The notes beneath the pieces are model-generated. The model was not told the origin of the DNA. It saw only the letters and a program-made list of their open reading frames with translations, and made no database searches. A stretch of DNA of 64,000 nucleotides from an uncultured Bacteroidia bacterium (GTDB lineage: Bacteria; Bacteroidota; Bacteroidia; Bacteroidales; ML635J-15). The translations under genes and the position numbers were made by a program. Below, in pieces: positions 24,301-45,890 of this stretch (position 1 is its first letter; every line of letters starts with the position of its first letter). The stretch spans positions 186,001 to 250,000 of the forward strand of contig CADAXK010000002.1 of the NCBI GenBank assembly GCA_902791865.1, given 5' to 3'.

Positions 24301-24832
24301 AAACTTATTTGCGAGTTTGAGATTTATACAGCGTGTATTTTTTCAACAAGGAATATGCATCTTAAAAATCAATTCCCAAACTATATGCATACAAATAAAC
24401 AAAGGACGGCGTTGAACCGTCCTTGATTGTTGTTTTTTTAGTCGCTTCGCGAGAAATTGAACAAATTTACACAAACCTTTAGCTCACGCAGCGAAGCAAG
24501 TAATCTTTCAAATCTTATTTGTTTGATCGCATCCTGTCATTCAGCAAAATAGAACGAACAGCACAAGTAACGGTGCTTGTGAGTTCATTTATGCGGTACC
24601 TTTAGCTCGGCGTAGCCAATCTCCTTTTGTGTACTATTAGGAGATTGCTCGCAGGCTTCGCGAGGTTGCAAGCAACGTTGCGGATAACCGTCTTCACAAC
24701 GCTCTGTCTATCGACAATCGCGTGTTCCTACTGGCTTCCGCAATGACGGTACTATGTGCATTTGTTTGATTTGAAACATATTTGTACAATTTAACTTCGT
24801 TGAGGGCTTCGCCGTTCTGCCATTAGGCACTC
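24301..24832. other. Gene-free region with hairpin and repeat copy B
   Basis: Contains the hairpin AAGGACGG-CGTTGAA-CCGTCCTT (24402-24424) followed by a T-rich run on the + strand, although no + strand gene precedes it. Then come the module CTTTAGCTCACGCAGCGAAG (also at the end of copy D) and the MITE-like element. No gene is seen. Confidence 0.55.
24536..24747 (+). mobile_element. MITE-like intergenic element, copy B
   Basis: 212 bp from GTCATTCAGCAAAATAG to CTTCCGCAATGAC. It shares GAACGAACAGCACAAG, GGTGCTTGTGAGTTCATTT, AATCTCC...GGAGATTGCTCGC, GCTTCGCGAGGTTGCAAGC and CAACGCTC with copies A and D. Confidence 0.78.
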
Positions 24833-26128
24833 CTATTCCTTTACAAATTTCCGCAAAGCCGCCCCCTGAGCCTGTCGAAGGGTGCGGATGCGAACCACAT
24901 ACACTCCGCTTCTCAAATCTTCCACATCACAAACCGCATTGTCTGCATTAACCTCAATGCGCCTTACCACCTGACCCATCACATTAACAATCTCGATTTC
25001 CAAAATTGTTTCGGATGATGTGATGTTGAGAATGTCAGAAGTTGGATTTGGGAATACTTTTACATCATCAAAGCCCTGTTCTTCAACAATTACAGGATTA
25101 ATGAGATTTAAATTGCGCGTAAAAGAATAACCAGCCAAGCTAGCCGTGATATTCTCGCTACCGGATGCAAGGATTGTCGCATTTTCGCCAACAATTGATA
25201 ATCTACTGCCCGATGCCCACGAAACACTATTCTCCGTGCCAACTGTAAAATGATGCTGAACCAAATCCACATCATCGTATTCCTCTTCACTTTCCGCATA
25301 CAGATAAATCGGCGTTGCAAAAAGCATAGCGAGCGAATCGTTTTCCAGACCTAGCGGAATAGGATAGCGACCTTCGGCATAACTCCAGCCATCACCGAGC
25401 ATAGCGCGAAGTTCGGGTGTATCGCCAGTAAGTTGCGAAGTAAATTTCCATTCGTACATTCCTTCTTCGTTGGCGGAAGTATCGGCAAGCATCTGTGCAT
25501 CGTAGTAATTGGAATCGTAGTAAATGCTGTCACCCAAATCCCAACCTTCGTAGTCGAAATTTCCAGAACATATTGCTGAACCATCAACTTTTCCAATATT
25601 AAGGCAATGTGCGAGAGTATCACCGCAATATGAAGCAAACGAACCCGCTATGCCACCTACTGCTGTTTCTCCCTGTATGTGTCCAAAATTGTAGCAGTTG
25701 ACAATTCTTCCGGTAGGATAAGTGTATCCTTCATTAATAACCCATAATGGATCATTTCCCCAATATTCACCAGCTATTCCTCCAACATTATATTTTCCAA
25801 TTACATCGCCATAATTTGCACAGTTTTCTATGGAAACCGGACCTATTATTTCACCCCCGACAATACCGCCAACATAAATTGAAGAATCGGCTTGTACCGT
25901 TCCAAAATTCTGACAATTCTTTATTTTGCCTTTTGCATAACGCGCATCTATATCGCATTTTCCAATTATCCCTCCTACATTCATACTAAAGTCTCCATAC
26001 GAATTTACATATGAAATATTGCCGTAATTAGTACAGCCTATAATATTGCTATCCGTATAACTGAAATGTTCATGGCAAAAGCGAGCACATATACCGCCAG
26101 TATCTTCCCCGTATATTAATTTACGCAA
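24833..26128 (-). pseudogene. C-terminal part of a frameshifted GLUG-repeat protein with T9SS sorting domain
   Basis: This frame holds GLUG-type repeats (NCxNYGxVxGxxxVGGIVG pattern: NCQNFGTVQADSSIYVGGIVG, NCANYGDVIGKYNVGGIAG) and ends in a type A T9SS sorting domain (VFPNPTSDILNITSS, IEIVNVMGQVVRRI, LRSGVYVVRI). It has no signal peptide of its own; the signal peptide is in the upstream frame that stops at 26116. The first in-frame start is a TTG at 26128, after which LIYGEDTGGI resumes the repeat. The two frames overlap by 13 bases. If read as one gene the product would be about 640 residues, exported through the T9SS. Confidence 0.75.
24864..24882. repeat. CCCTGAGCCTGTCGAAGGG repeat inside the T9SS domain
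   Basis: One base different from the copy at 16806-16824 and in the same place of the coding sequence, giving LRQAQGAALRKFVKE at the C-terminus. Confidence 0.8.
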
Positions 26129-26748
26129 TCTATGATATTAGAACTGGATCCATCAAAACAAATTCCGCCAACAGACGAATATGATGTATTCGTGTAGTTT
26201 GTGCAGGAAATTATATTGCCCAGATTTCTACCAGCAATGCCTCCAAAAAATTCTATATAACCTACCTGCAGTTTTGAAACACCTCGACATATAGTTCCAT
26301 AATTAATAATACAAATTCCAGCACCACTCCTACCAAAGCTGGATGAACCTGAAGTGAATAATTTGCCCACAACCGAAAGCGAATCTACATATCCCGTAGA
26401 ATCAATCTTGTAAAACAATGCTACATCACGCTCATTATCCGCCTCTATACTCAAAGCCACCGTATGCCCGCCACCATGCAGACTACCGCCAAAACCGTTT
26501 TGACCGCCATGACTAGCCCAGTAGCCTCCTAGCGTATTGGTAATCGAATCGTCGACAATATCATTCATAAGGCGAAAATGTATATTGCGCAAATGGTTGC
26601 CGTTAACCATGCTGTCACCAATCTCTTTAAGATGTACAATTGTATATAAACGGTAAGGGTCAGATTCGGTGCCAGTGCCACCGCCAAATTGGGCAAACGA
26701 ATAAATGCATGTAAAAATACATACTGCCGTAATTATAAAGCTTCTCAT
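26116..26748 (-). pseudogene. N-terminal part of the frameshifted GLUG-repeat protein
   Basis: 210 residues with a signal peptide (1-19, ending YSFAQ), then FGGGTGTESDPYRLYTIVHLKEIGD, the usual entry to GLUG-repeat domains, and GLUG-like repeats (GGIAGRNLGNIISCTNYTN). It stops in mid-repeat after IIDCVN; the continuation YGEDTGGI is in another frame. Removing five bases (TAATA on the coding strand) would join AAT to TACGGG and restore NYG. This could be a true lesion or an assembly error. No slippery heptamer supports programmed shifting. Confidence 0.75.
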
Positions 26749-27116
26749 AACTAAAATTATTAAATTTTATACTAATTGAAAAAATGTTCCTATTTCACCA
26801 CTATGACAACTAAAACATCAATTTCGTTGCCTATGATTTCAAAAAAAATCAACATTTTTTCAACATAGTGGCAAATGTGCTTTTTTTGAATACGAAAATT
26901 CATAGAAATTACTGGGCTTCGCCAGTTTCTATGCCTGCGGCGTTTCAATGGGCTAACGCCCGTTTGAATGGCTTCGCCGTTTCTAATTGTTTCTAGGTTA
27001 GATGGCTGACGCCGTTTCTAGGTTTGAAAAATCGACAATTAGAAGATTTGCTTGCGCTAGCTAAAGGTTGATGATTGTAGCTGCGCAATACTTTGCAATA
27101 ATTGTTTATTTTTTTA
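26749..27116. other. Gene-free region of small hairpins
   Basis: From 26902 to 27060 runs a series of short inverted repeats built on TTTCTA/TAGAAA and GGCTTCGCC/GGGCTAACGCCC (for example CTGGGCTTCGCCAG between TAGAAA and TTTCTA). Then comes GATGATTGTAGCTGCGCAAT, a block repeated downstream of the ATPase gene at 28661-28680. No gene is seen. Confidence 0.5.
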
Positions 27117-27209
27117 GCCAAATTACCGAACAGAATCCGTCCAAATTACCGAATAAAAATCAGCCAAATTACCGAACAGAATACAGCCAAATTGCCGAAC
27201 AGATTTTAA
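27117..27209 (+). repeat. 23-bp direct-repeat array upstream of the DUF4143 ATPase
   Basis: Four copies begin CCAAATT at 27118, 27141, 27164 and 27187, an exact 23-bp period. The unit core is CCAAATTACCGAACAGAAT plus 4 variable bases. There are no spacers, so it is not a CRISPR array. It ends 40 bases before the -7 box of the ATPase gene. Confidence 0.92.
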
Positions 27210-27248
27210 GAAAATTAAAAATATTATTTGAATATCAAATAATTATTG

Positions 27249-27256
27249 TAATTTTG
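27249..27256 (+). promoter_or_regulatory. -7 box (TAATTTTG) of the DUF4143 ATPase gene
   Basis: TAATTTTG ends 2 bases before the ATG at 27259, so that ATG would be at or before the transcript start. The ATG at 27283 is preferred. Confidence 0.55.
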
Positions 27257-27282
27257 CAATGTCAAAAAATTACAAAAAAATT

Positions 27283-28581
27283 ATGGACATTTATAGGCGT
27301 AGAATTGCAGACTATTTATTGGTCGAATTATTGGAAGCATGCGGTTGCGTTTTGGTTGAAGGTTCCAAGTGGTGCGGCAAAACAACAACAGCGGAACAAG
27401 CCGCCAAAAGCATCGTGTATCTGGCAGACCCCGAAGATGGCGAACGCAACATACAACTTGCGAAAACCAGTCCGAAATTCCTGTTGGCAGGCGAAACACC
27501 GCGGCTAATTGACGAATGGCAGGTTGTACCCAAACTCTGGGATGCCATAAGGTTCGAAGTTGACCATAGGAAAAAGCAAGCCCAGTTCATAATTACAGGT
27601 TCGGCTGTTCCTGCCTCCCGCGACGAAATCATACATACCGGCACAGGACGCATTGCATCACTGCTTATGCGACCTATGACATTGTGGGAATCTGGCGACA
27701 GCAACGGCACAATAAGTCTTGGCGATCTATTTGAAAGTCTGCCTGAACAATTCACCCAACACAACGAAATTGACATCGAAACCCTTGCATACCTCGTGTG
27801 CCGTGGCGGATGGCCTACAGCTGCCCTAAACGACAACCACAAAGTTGCACTAAAACAGGCAAAAATATTTTACGAAGGCGTTGTAGGCAAAGCAAACGGA
27901 AGCGGTTCCGACATCTCACGAGCCGATGGTATTACGCGTAATCCTGAATTTGTGAAACTGCTGATGCGAAGCCTAAGCCGACACCAAGGGGCGCAAGTGT
28001 CGATTAGCACCATCTATAACGATATGATTGCCAACGAAAACAGTTCACTTAACGAAGATACAATTTTCTCGTATATAAAGGCGTTGAAACAAATTTTCGT
28101 AATTGAAAATATGCCGGCGTGGAATCCAAACCTGCGCAGCAAAACCGCTTTGCGAACTTCCGACACTTTATATTTCGTTGACCCCAGCATAGCGGCCGCC
28201 GCATTAAGGATTGGACCATCGGACTTAATCAATGACCTAAAGACCTTCGGACTGCTATTCGAAACATTGGCGGTTCGCGACCTGCGAGTATTTGCAGACT
28301 ACCTCGATGGACAAGTATATCACTACCGCGACAAGAATGGGCTTGAATGCGATGCTGTCGTTCACCTCGCCAATGGAAAATATGGACTCATCGAAATAAA
28401 GCTCGGCGGTGACAACCTTATTGAAGAAGGTGCTACAACACTAAAAAAACTTGAAAGCAAAATCGACACTGACAGAATGCGAAAACCATCATTCCTTATG
28501 GTTCTAGTAGGTGTCGGCAACTACGCTTACCGCCGCGAAGACGGTGTTATCGTTGTGCCTCTCGGATGCTTGAAAAATTAA
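27283..28581 (+). CDS. AAA-family ATPase with DUF4143 (PD-(D/E)XK-like) C-terminus
   Basis: 432 residues. Walker A is GSKWCGKT (27-34), Walker B-like LIDEWQ near 81-86, and a sensor-like FIITGS near 105. This is the AAA_14 ATPase domain followed by the DUF4143 domain. The C-terminal region has LECDAVVHL then LIEIKLGG: Asp357, Glu371 and Lys373 form a PD-(D/E)XK-like D-x13-E-x-K. Such proteins are abundant in Bacteroidota and archaea and their role is unknown. The gene stands alone, bracketed by 23-bp repeat arrays, which suggests it acts on or is controlled through them. The longest frame starts at ATG 27259, inside the promoter region. Confidence 0.9.
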   Translation: MDIYRRRIADYLLVELLEACGCVLVEGSKWCGKTTTAEQAAKSIVYLADPEDGERNIQLAKTSPKFLLAGETPRLIDEWQVVPKLWDAIRFEVDHRKKQAQFIITGSAVPASRDEIIHTGTGRIASLLMRPMTLWESGDSNGTISLGDLFESLPEQFTQHNEIDIETLAYLVCRGGWPTAALNDNHKVALKQAKIFYEGVVGKANGSGSDISRADGITRNPEFVKLLMRSLSRHQGAQVSISTIYNDMIANENSSLNEDTIFSYIKALKQIFVIENMPAWNPNLRSKTALRTSDTLYFVDPSIAAAALRIGPSDLINDLKTFGLLFETLAVRDLRVFADYLDGQVYHYRDKNGLECDAVVHLANGKYGLIEIKLGGDNLIEEGATTLKKLESKIDTDRMRKPSFLMVLVGVGNYAYRREDGVIVVPLGCLKN

Positions 28582-28601
28582 GACACAGCATTTTTTAGTC
28601 G

Positions 28602-28787
28602 GCCAAATTGCCGAACAGAACACAGCCAAAATACTTTGAATATTTGATGATTCGATGATTTGATGATTGTAGCGGCGCAATGATTTGCGCCGTTCACAAT
28701 GCATGGAGATAATTTCAGCCAAATCACCGAACAGAATACAGCCATATTACCGAACAAAAATCCGCCAAATTACCGAACAAAATTTAA
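28602..28787 (+). repeat. 23-bp direct-repeat array downstream of the DUF4143 ATPase
   Basis: Copies of the same unit begin at 28603 (with a decayed copy at 28626) and at 28719, 28742 and 28765, again exactly 23 bp apart. Between the two blocks lies GATGATTGTAGCGGCGCAAT plus GATTTGCGCC, a hairpin whose first half also precedes the upstream array. Confidence 0.9.
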
Positions 28788-28924
28788 AAATTTAGACTTA
28801 ACGCAATAAATACCAAACAATTATAACAAACACGAACATTCAAAAAAAACACAACAAAAAGAATGTATTTTTTCCTTATTTCTCCCTCATTTCGTACATG
28901 TCAGTCTTCAAGGAATTTTGCCCG

Positions 28925-29827
28925 TTATCCTTTCTTCCCAAAATATTTCGGAGCCAAAATTATCAGCAAAACAGCCACCATTATGGTTATGAAACCGAAA
29001 ACAAGCGATATTGTAAATGGTTCACCAAAAACAATGCAACCGAAAAATACCGCAGTAGCAGGTTCAAGAACACCAAGAATTGCGGCTGGCGTAGAGCCTA
29101 TATTCCTGATTGACACCGCTAAAGCGATGAGAGAAATGGTTGTCGGGAGAATGCCAAGTCCTGCAAGGCAAAGCCACGAGAAACCATCGGGAACAGCCTG
29201 CAACTGCGTTCCACAGCCAAGGCGGAAGAAAAACAGCACGAACGTTCCTACAACAATGGCATAAAACGACAGCTTGACGCTATTCATTTCTTTCAGTGCC
29301 GAACGGTTTACACCTACAATATATATGGCGTATGTCAGCGACGACATTACCACGAAGAAAATTCCCATCAATGTCACCGAACCAGAGTCGTCACCCTTGT
29401 AGAGCAACATAAGACCGCCAAACGACAAGGCAAGCGAAACCACTGTAAACCAACGTATTTTCTCCTTGAAGAATACTGCCATTATTATTGCCGTAAGCAC
29501 CGGATAGACAAAAAGTATCGTCGAAGCAATTCCAGCAGGCATCATACGGTAGCTCTCGAACAAAAAGATGGACGACGAACAGAACAAAGTTCCCATTATC
29601 ACAACGGCAATAAGTTCCTTTGCCTTGAGACGGAAATCGATTTTCTTGACAAGCATAAGAATGGCAAGCGCAACGGCAGCCATCGCGTACCTATAGAACA
29701 GAATAGAGTCCACCCCCACTCCTCGCTCCATCACTGGCAGAGAGAACAGCGGATTCACACCGTAGCAAATCGCCGACAGGCAGCCACACACATAACCTTT
29801 TACCTTATTGCCATTTAGTTCTGTCAT
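28925..29827 (-). CDS. EamA/DMT-family transporter
   Basis: 300 residues with about ten transmembrane helices in two homologous EamA halves. Examples are VAVVIMGTLFCSSSIFLF, ASTILFVYPVLTAIIMAVFFKEKIRW at the end of the first half, and TAVFFGCIVFGEPFTISLVFGFITIMVAVLLII at the end of the second. The family exports or imports small metabolites such as amino acids in the inner membrane; the substrate is unknown. It is preceded by a TAAATTTG box at 29852-29845 and is divergent from the TraB/GumN gene. A 343-base repeat-rich gap separates it from the ATPase gene. Confidence 0.92.
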   Translation of the reverse strand: MTELNGNKVKGYVCGCLSAICYGVNPLFSLPVMERGVGVDSILFYRYAMAAVALAILMLVKKIDFRLKAKELIAVVIMGTLFCSSSIFLFESYRMMPAGIASTILFVYPVLTAIIMAVFFKEKIRWFTVVSLALSFGGLMLLYKGDDSGSVTLMGIFFVVMSSLTYAIYIVGVNRSALKEMNSVKLSFYAIVVGTFVLFFFRLGCGTQLQAVPDGFSWLCLAGLGILPTTISLIALAVSIRNIGSTPAAILGVLEPATAVFFGCIVFGEPFTISLVFGFITIMVAVLLIILAPKYFGKKG

Positions 29828-44241: not shown

Positions 44242-45663
44242 TTACTCCTTAATCAAATCATCGACTACAATATCATTTTGTACCAAACCCGAATATTCAT
44301 TCTGCTTCAATCCTTTGTTAGTTATCATAGTTAGATACAGCGACTTGCCAGTCTTAGTCTTCTTGCGGAAAATTTCGCGTCTCTCCTCAAGCCATTCTGC
44401 ATAGTCGGCAGTAATTTCATATTTCGACATCGAAAATTTAATCTCACATAAGTTTATTGTATCATCTCTACGGTCAATAACAAGGTCAATTTGCGCACCT
44501 TCGCCTTCATCGCGGCAAATCCAAGAACAAACATTCGTCTGAATTCCCGAAATGCCAAGCACTTTCTTAATCTGCGCTATATGCATAAGGCATAACTGCT
44601 CAAACGCATATCCACACCACGCACGCCGAGAAGGACTGTCAACCATATTGCTCCAGAGATTTTCATCGTGACCATCGTAGTTTGCAACAAAATGCAGATA
44701 AAAAAGAGAAAACATATCGTTCAACTGATACATAGCATCACGCTCCTTCTTTTCGAATGCCAAATATTTCGAAACAAAGTCGCATCGGCATAAATCCTCA
44801 AGAACTCTTGTCAGACTTCCGCCTTCAGAAAGTTTCAATGCATCTATTATCTCCTTGCGCGTCATACCTTTACGCTTGGTAGCGAGCAGTTCTACAACAC
44901 GCTTATAGGCTTGTGAATCATCGAATAACGAACGGAACAAAAAGTTGTATTCATCACGAAGTTCAGCGTCTTTTGCAAAGAACAAATTGTCAATATTCTG
45001 AGCCAAACTGAGATTTTTCTGCAAGAGATTTAAATAATAAGGTATGCCACCAAGCACCATATAGCATTCGGCAATCTGCGAACTATTGAAAACAAATCCG
45101 CGACTTTTCAGCATCTCGGCGGTCTCTGCCAATGTAAAGGGCTGTAACTTAATCTTATGTGTTAAACGATTGTGCAAACCACCTTTGCTTCCTATAAGTT
45201 TGCTCATCATCCAGGTTGTTGCCGAACCACATACTATAAACATAATATTATCACGCTCAGATGCCCAACTATTCCAGAAAAGTTCCAATGCTTTTGTAAA
45301 ACGAGATTTCTTCGTATCAAACCAAGGCAGTTCGTCAATAAAAATAACTATCCTTTTTTTCTTCAATCCCGACAAATATTTCTTCAGTTGCTCAAAAGCA
45401 TCAAACCAATTGTCAACTACAGGGAAAAAACTTTTTGAATATTGGCATAACTGCCTATTGAAATGAGCTAATTGTTCTTCGGGTGCGCCATTGTAAATTC
45501 CTGTCGCATAAAAATCCAACCGGTTCTTAAAATATTGCTTTATCAAGAAAGTCTTCCCTACTCTTCTTCGTCCGTAAACTGCAACAAATTCAGGCTTTTG
45601 CGACTCGTATATCTGCCGAAACTTCTCGGTTTCCCTATGTCTACCAAGTATTACTTCTTCCAT
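44242..45663 (-). CDS. Archaeal-type ATPase with DUF234 (PD-(D/E)XK-like) C-terminus
   Basis: 473 residues. Walker A is GRRRVGKT (31-38), Walker B VIFIDELPW (Asp110-Glu111), sensor IVCGSATTWM: the ATPase_2 domain. A winged-helix region (MTRKEIIDALKLSEGGSLTRVLEDLCRCDFV) follows, then the DUF234 domain with QIDLVID...NLCEIKF, where Asp393, Glu407 and Lys409 form a PD-(D/E)XK-like motif. The D-x13-E-x-K spacing is the same as in the DUF4143 ATPase at 27283-28581. The function of these stand-alone ATPases is unknown. Its promoter lies inside the proximal unit of a four-copy 54-bp tandem array. Confidence 0.92.
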   Translation of the reverse strand: MEEVILGRHRETEKFRQIYESQKPEFVAVYGRRRVGKTFLIKQYFKNRLDFYATGIYNGAPEEQLAHFNRQLCQYSKSFFPVVDNWFDAFEQLKKYLSGLKKKRIVIFIDELPWFDTKKSRFTKALELFWNSWASERDNIMFIVCGSATTWMMSKLIGSKGGLHNRLTHKIKLQPFTLAETAEMLKSRGFVFNSSQIAECYMVLGGIPYYLNLLQKNLSLAQNIDNLFFAKDAELRDEYNFLFRSLFDDSQAYKRVVELLATKRKGMTRKEIIDALKLSEGGSLTRVLEDLCRCDFVSKYLAFEKKERDAMYQLNDMFSLFYLHFVANYDGHDENLWSNMVDSPSRRAWCGYAFEQLCLMHIAQIKKVLGISGIQTNVCSWICRDEGEGAQIDLVIDRRDDTINLCEIKFSMSKYEITADYAEWLEERREIFRKKTKTGKSLYLTMITNKGLKQNEYSGLVQNDIVVDDLIKE

Positions 45664-45669
45664 CTTTAA

Positions 45670-45890
45670 TTATTATATCCAGTCCGCAAAGGTATAAAAT
45701 TAAACACTTACGGACAAGATATTTTTATTATTTCTTGTCCGTATCTCAAAAAATTCAGTACTTACGGACGAGATATTCTTATTATATCCAGTCCGCAACT
45801 ATCAAAAATTAACACTTAAGGACGAGATATTTTTATTATATTCAGTCCGTAACTATCAAAAACAGACACTTACGGACAAGATATTTTTTA
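45670..45890 (-). repeat. 54-bp tandem array at the DUF234 ATPase promoter
   Basis: Four units; ACTTACGGAC (or ACTTAAGGAC) begins at 45706, 45760, 45814 and 45868, exactly 54 bp apart. Each unit carries an inverted repeat, clearest in the distal one: GTCCGTAA and TTACGGAC, separated by 17 bases and followed by AAGATATTTTTATTATA. Confidence 0.92.
45687..45694 (-). promoter_or_regulatory. -7 box (TACCTTTG) of the DUF234 ATPase gene
   Basis: TACCTTTG on the reverse strand overlaps one arm of the inverted repeat in the gene-proximal 54-bp unit, 23 bases before the ATG. The other units have GATAGTTACGG-like sequence at this place. Confidence 0.6.

Follow-up and report, generated by a model that had tools for sequence, protein, structure and literature searches.

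Why should a gene for an AAA ATPase be bracketed by arrays of a short direct repeat, and what might these repeats do for it? The question is raised by a locus at positions 27,117 to 28,787 of a 64,000-nucleotide stretch of DNA, here called the window, from an uncultured Bacteroidia bacterium (assembly GCA_902791865.1, contig CADAXK010000002.1, positions 186,001 to 250,000). The gene encodes a protein with AAA_14 and DUF4143 domains, and the repeat has a period of 23 bp. The answer that we consider quite probable is that the 23-bp array is a private operator: the predicted ATPase-nuclease would bind its own units and set its own promoter.

All units of the locus have the same orientation and follow each other at a period of 23 bp within each array. 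An earlier note on this DNA had described four upstream copies and four clear plus one decayed downstream copies, without spacers, and both the copies and their contiguity were found again. The period of 23 bp in one orientation, which the note had also described, holds inside each array, but the downstream array is broken by other DNA (approximately 28649-28716). The gap between the upstream array and the -7 box, given there as 40 bases, is actually 43 nt from the last upstream core (end 27205). The 300 bp upstream of the gene gave a z score of 21 at period 23 compared to Markov shuffles. The 23-bp arrays are real and far from chance, and a chance tandem repeat was rejected as their origin. 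The features of the locus are as follows.

27116..27205, + strand: upstream array in which the 23-bp unit stands four times, with cores at 27118, 27141, 27164 and 27187; copies of the unit with at most two mismatches are confined genome-wide to the locus
27227..27256, + strand: putative promoter of the ATPase gene, with -33 TTTG at 27227-27230 and -7 box TAATTTTG at 27249-27256, read from the sequence
27259..28581, + strand: AAA_14–winged helix-turn-helix (wHTH)–DUF4143 (PD-(D/E)XK) protein, 440 aa as called and probably 432 aa (Pfam, PADLOC, AlphaFold2 (AF2) model)
27361..27384, + strand: Walker A region, residues 35-42, with Walker B D85 and E86 downstream (conservation in homologs)
28054..28092, + strand: predicted wHTH recognition helix, residues 266-278, with the D267 codon at 28057-28059 (AF2 secondary structure, covariation)
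28345..28401, + strand: PD-(D/E)XK active-site region, E363, D365 and E379-x-K381
28601..28648, + strand: downstream array part 1, a clear unit (28603) and a decayed unit (28626)
28717..28783, + strand: downstream array part 2, three units (28719, 28742 and 28765)
28784..28829, + strand: AT-rich tail after the downstream array, at the right edge of homology to a related element at locus L107

The -33 and -7 boxes were assigned by what we take to be the Bacteroidetes promoter consensus. The start codon is probably at 27283 instead of 27259, because homologs align from residue 9, because residues 1-9 have a predicted local distance difference test score (pLDDT) below 50 in the AF2 model, and because the likely -7 box ends 2 nt ahead of 27259. 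By eye, the tail at 28784-28829 resembles the promoter stretch behind the upstream array. A dispersed intergenic repeat (TTGATGATTGTAGC-GCGCAAT) is present at 27068-27096, before the upstream array, and at 28660-28688, within the downstream array; a stretch similar to it adjoins the paralog L009.

The evidence that the period matters comes from the relatives of the gene. In a set of 102 AAA_14-DUF4143 (PDC-S01) genes, the best upstream period was 23 or a multiple of it in 98 (23 in 93, 46 in four and 69 in one), and the letters of the unit differed from gene to gene while the 23-bp period stayed constant. With equal odds for all 97 periods tried, 23 would be best about once per hundred. The rule held in 85/89 genes at less than 97% identity and in 65/68 at less than 80%. 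The homologs came from relatives (26/80 genomes), the order (54/295, plus 40 further stretches), viral contigs (eight loci), a repeat scan (four loci) and a phylum search (L147); L076 and L085, which lack the N-terminus, are not in the set, whereas the window gene is in it as L060; L010 is counted twice (the second time as L086), and L176 and L180 are nearly identical. The expectation of the earlier note, short tandem repeats within 300 bp of related genes, was borne out upstream by these 98 genes. Plasmid and phage collections matched in 14 records, of which 13 were taken and the partial match H12 was left out; the best period was 23 in 12/13 and z exceeded 5 in 10/13, with a Sinorhizobium relative as the sole misfit. 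Among these records, the 23-bp period is present in Collinsella relatives (40-42% identity) and in Prosthecochloris (28%, z 10), with a weak signal in Actinomyces (29%, z 2.1) and Lentilactobacillus (27%, z 2.6). A Spirochaetales metagenome-assembled genome encodes a 60% identical protein beside the window unit in five copies. From the phylum search, 6/27 loci passed z 4, one of them (L147) of the window subfamily. As far as these sequences can tell, far more than the window gene is involved, and the arrays are a subfamily-wide feature.

Alignment of the units from 98 genes (leaving out L086, L180, L170 and L068 as duplicates, a misassigned start and a degenerate array) revealed a framework, approximately CC-AAnT on one side and an A run on the other, which encloses a core of some eight variable bases. 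Upstream units number 2 to 9 in 93/98 genes and one in 5. Downstream arrays of at least two own units were found in 17/94 genes compared to 0/374 trials with foreign units, and no own-unit array was found on the opposite strand, either upstream (0/98) or downstream (0/94). Units were counted at a relative score of 0.45, and opposite-strand units at 0.6.

The unit is private to the window gene, because all eight sites at which CCAAATTACCGAACARAAT occurs with at most two mismatches in the 3.39-Mb source genome lie there (8/8). Scatter of the unit over the genome, which the earlier note had named as a refuting outcome, was ruled out, close copies being found only at the window gene; the reversed control pattern had no matches in the genome, and a dispersed genomic repeat was rejected as the identity of the unit. 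Allowing up to three mismatches raises the number of sites to 13; the five added ones, each with exactly three mismatches, are away from the gene, and one is found upstream of paralog L006. The source genome holds 25 DUF4143 and 26 ATPase_2 matches, nine common by position, which makes 42 distinct genes, and the printed flanks of these paralogs include many genes with repeats of their own alongside. Autocorrelation over the 300 bp upstream reveals a repeat above z 4 in 23/25 DUF4143 genes. Among control regions, taken upstream of window ATG open reading frames (ORFs) of at least 150 aa, some of which are not real genes, 5/53 pass (periods 14, 14, 14, 37 and 60). Thus, the arrays that the earlier note saw around a lone gene stand, but the gene is not alone in having them. 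In five of the DUF4143 genes of the source genome the best period is 23, in twelve it is 32-33 (or 66), and the remainder have 22, 30, 40, 40, 53 and 76, some of which may be other repeats. One of the twelve 32-33-bp genes, L001, has a palindromic motif of its own and borrows the array of its neighbour L014; these are adjacent DUF4143 genes (genome G000, contig C4, 351488-356409), and the 32-bp array of L014 recurs between them.

The protein has the parts that such a reading would need. Pfam found AAA_14 (50.1 bits, gathering threshold 27) and DUF4143 (108.7 bits, threshold 28.1) and no other domain, and the PADLOC PDC-S01 profile PDLC04790 matches residues 6-438 with 184.7 bits (E 5.9e-55); neither an NCBIfam family nor a match in a PDB sequence search was obtained. 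In the AF2 model (pLDDT 87.4), helices 229-241, 249-259 and 266-278 are followed by strands, which gives this region a winged-helix look. The order of its parts, an AAA core and then a helical and a winged-helix portion of the corresponding type, places the protein with the signal transduction ATPases with numerous domains (STAND). All 101/101 aligned homologs keep Walker A K41 and the Walker B residues D85 and E86. In the C-terminal part, D365, E379 and K381 are conserved in 100/101 and E363 in 99/101, which is the D/E...D...E-x-K pattern of PD-(D/E)XK enzymes and predicts a nuclease.

The unit core and the protein appear to change together at one residue. This is residue 267, with which the predicted recognition helix begins nearby and which has the strongest covariation with the unit core among 429 columns. 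With 54 representatives and residue classes, no other of the 429 x 9 core pairs scores as high as residue 267 with unit position 7 (mutual information (MI) 1.04), followed by residue 267 and position 8 (MI 0.77), and 0/200 permutations reached MI 1.04 in any column, whether units were shuffled freely or within clades. A run with 95 proteins, which excluded L157 and proteins of 390 aa or fewer, also had residue 267 on top when summed over the core. The residue-base table from 55 representatives is chemically sensible: Asp goes with C in 10/11, Lys with G in 8/8, Arg with G in 3/3 and Pro with A in 4/5. Acidic residues were paired with 14 C and 2 G and basic residues with 0 C and 11 G (Fisher p 6e-6, excluding two acidic rows with A or T). 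Among disjoint nearest pairs, the base differs in 15/23 when residue 267 differs compared to 5/24 when it is the same (p 0.003). One and the same data set yielded both the unit alignment and the covariation positions, and the plasmid and phage records are the only outside check. In 12 of these 13 records, without Sinorhizobium, D, K or P at 267 agreed with the rule in 5/5, and N was found with C twice, in near-duplicates. The suggestion of the earlier note that the repeats are binding sites of the encoded ATPase is strongly supported at the level of sequence by the kept period, by this covariation and by the privacy of the unit.

The arrays are also placed in register with the promoter. In 46 distinct genes, the distance from the last unit to the TAnnTTTG box clusters at about 39, 50 and 61, and less clearly at 72 and 83, with a few outside (genes with a box near the start, less than 80% identity, distances of 25-95 only). 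For a step of 11 bp the Rayleigh test gave p of about 3e-8, and for 10.5 bp 5e-8; a step of 11.5 bp, half the unit period, fits similarly well, and 23 bp does not fit. Sites beside the gene's own promoter, seemingly matched to the DNA-binding domain of its own product, have the sequence pattern of an operator array. In the mechanism that we propose, the predicted ATPase-nuclease would bind the array through its winged-helix recognition helix, one protomer per unit, and the protomers would probably lie side by side as an ATP-dependent oligomer. The bound protein would then control its own promoter, because sites on one helix face beside that promoter suit an autoregulator; repression is more likely than activation, which is a guess. 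Perhaps the bound array also restrains the nuclease until foreign DNA or another trigger appears, a speculation that fits the listing of the family as a defence candidate.

Several observations weigh against the private operator and its reader. Four of the 102 genes do not have 23 as the best period: L163 (best 14, with 23 at z 5.9), L197 (best 64, with 23 at z 15), L170, whose start codon is misassigned, and L068, whose array is degenerate. Arrays beside all Pfam DUF4143 proteins were rejected, as 0/15 of the high-scoring DUF4143 loci of the phylum, L126-L140, have one. The putative residue-to-base code is partial: Glu goes with C in only 4/7 and Asn with A in 6/11, and Asn, Glu, Gln and Thr map to no single base; the outside records with E, Q, T or A at 267 are of uncertain register. 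In a first pass on the 50 closest proteins (at least 54% identity), other single pairs, several of them with framework positions, outrank residue 267, and the nearest pairs that differ at 267 are also more diverged (mean identity 0.65 versus 0.83). Helical phasing at 11 bp is indistinguishable from half of 23 (11.5 bp). Coexisting paralogs avoid similar units no more than divergence predicts: 2/59 within-genome pairs, including a duplicate with 100% identity, share a core at up to one mismatch, and for proteins of 55-65% identity a core is shared by 0/25 within-genome and 44/1211 between-genome pairs, a comparison that leaves active avoidance among paralogs of one genome unsupported. Finally, the downstream arrays (17/94) are unexplained by a simple operator.

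Another reading is that the arrays are the ends of a small mobile element moved by the ATPase-nuclease, much as TnsA/B/C in Tn7 act on repeats at the ends. The window block (about 24348-28925) is patchy between congeners at metG/EamA. In the EamA loci of ten congeners, metG directly adjoins without the block in G022, G023, G008 and G006, the ATPase element of the block is present in G007, and five others have different neighbours. In G008, a related element elsewhere, a remnant with 91% protein identity, has five units before and three units after a gene with an internal deletion; at its site, G017, whose locus matches RUG12182 without a difference over 4,923 bases, carries a seven-unit array without a gene, and G007 has neither array nor gene. 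The homology of the window element to the L107 element spans 27117-28829 and ends at the arrays and the 46-bp tail. The fused seven-unit array suggests recombination between two flanking arrays, which would have left a natural scar. Such patchiness means that the locus has either moved or been lost in some lineages, and it is not proof of transposition. We regard the mobile element as unlikely, since a downstream array is found in only 17/94 genes and inverted in none, the window unit occurs at one genome locus with no target duplication seen by eye, the protein shows only AAA_14 and DUF4143, and the window insertion carries further ORFs (24833-26748). On the same counts (opposite-strand arrays 0/98 upstream and 0/94 downstream), a DNA transposon, Tn7-like or other, was rejected, and the ends of a self-mobilising unit, which the earlier note had offered as its second idea, have no support as a rule. 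The same chromosomal site was seen as array, deleted gene and array in one genome (L107 and L085) and as a fused seven-unit array without the gene in a sister genome (L096 and L295). Short arrays of the window unit in L110 (Candidatus Bacteroides pullicola) and L103 (Muribaculaceae) are possible solo scars; tblastn found no gene homolog near them in 8-kb stretches, the L103 array lying near the end of its stretch.

Could the repeats instead be iterons for replication or partition, with the protein acting on them as an Orc1/Cdc6-type initiator? Orc1/Cdc6, DnaA and plasmid Rep are AAA or winged-helix proteins that act on phased direct repeats; the window protein has a STAND/Orc-like fold, with Orc proteins among its fold matches, and its sites are likewise directly repeated and phased. 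Compared to those systems, the window repeats are gene-private and promoter-linked, and the arrays of the subfamily track the promoter. The family is present in many copies on chromosome-sized contigs, with 25 DUF4143 matches in one genome, and its relatives were found in only 10/72,556 plasmid records, 4/50,697 phage records and 8 viral-contig loci, all of which make iterons very improbable. An iteron plasmid was rejected (the window lies within a 480-kb contig), as were phage cargo as the main home of the family, on the phage and viral-contig counts, and an array of clustered regularly interspaced short palindromic repeats, given the contiguous 23-bp period without unique spacers. Only slightly better placed, and still quite improbable in our view, is that the array serves as operator for a different regulator, or that it is neutral DNA that grew by slippage, and that its link to the protein is hitchhiking. 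The position of the arrays upstream of the promoter and the copy number of 1 to 9 would suit this, and binding by the protein is a prediction from sequence. On the other hand, paralogs of one genome differ in unit and not in period, slippage alone is not expected to fix 23 bp across phyla, and the covariation points to the recognition helix of the protein itself.

The plan recurs in sister families, with periods of 32-33 bp in one and 52-56 bp in another. Among the L011 relatives and paralogs, the best period is 33 in 23/39, 32 in 6, 65-66 in 3 and another in 2, with no signal in 5. PDC-S27 ATPases have periods of 52-56 bp with z above 4 in 20/37 genes (some genes counted twice), and by eye many of their units read as inverted half-sites that differ from gene to gene. 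A wider conjecture, which we hold tentatively and think more doubtful than not, is that PDC-S01, the 33-bp sister and PDC-S27 form a superfamily of self-addressed nuclease genes. In each, a private phased array would serve as operator and identity tag, read by a compact winged-helix residue-to-base code; the array would hold the ATPase-nuclease as an inactive filament, and DNA that is free of the array or depletes it (phage, plasmid, locus loss) would release it. The window itself contains a PDC-S27 ATPase gene at 44242-45663 on the - strand (671 bits in PADLOC), with a palindromic half-site array of 54-bp period directly upstream (45670-45888).

The best fold matches of the window protein are the archaeal STAND ATPases SSO1545 (2fna) and PAB2304 (2qen), which cover residues 4-317 (AAA core, helical part and winged helix) and end before the nuclease domain; we know of no DNA target for either. 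The fold-match lists contained no complex that fixes the register of the protein on the unit, an absence there that excludes nothing. MalT, a STAND-type regulator, binds direct repeats, and in plant nucleotide-binding leucine-rich repeat proteins and apoptosome ATPases the STAND-type winged helix is a regulatory part; our results suggest that it can also work as a sequence reader. Compared to McrBC, the window protein is a single polypeptide in which a modified-cytosine reader was not seen. IniR has an SSO1545-like ATPase domain and, according to a section title, binds its target promoter (PMC5760070). It differs in being MalT-like with a separate C-terminal DNA-binding domain, in having no nuclease listed in the cited passages, and in targeting another operon (PMC5760070).

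The earlier note stated that DUF4143 ATPases lack an assigned function, and this remains true, although the family appears in PADLOC as the candidate defence system PDC-S01. One source describes PDC-S01, a phage defence candidate in PADLOC-DB, as likewise an ATPase with PD-(D/E)XK and as the fourth most common putative defence system across all prokaryotes (PMC12988326); another reports that no individual defence locus is more frequent in bovine rumen genomes (PMC13356809). Both sources state that most such candidates await validation, and their cited PDC-S01 passages give neither target nor mechanism (PMC12988326, PMC13356809). Among the literature matches listed, as far as their text was available, DUF4143 is named in one paper, on Argonaute in Thermus, and no arrays of this kind are described, which is not proof, as subscription papers and bioRxiv were mostly outside the search. 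A private, exactly spaced array together with a residue-to-base rule would provide a predicted DNA target for thousands of genes (at least 7,999 scored homologs). If the wider conjecture were true, what ranks fourth among prokaryotic "defence systems" in abundance would instead act as a sentinel that is addressed and resembles an addiction module.

The ATPase element shares its block between metG and the EamA gene with two overlapping ORFs at 24833-26748 on the - strand, which encode a repeat protein of secreted type that ends in a sorting-like C-terminal tail and are possibly one frameshifted gene.
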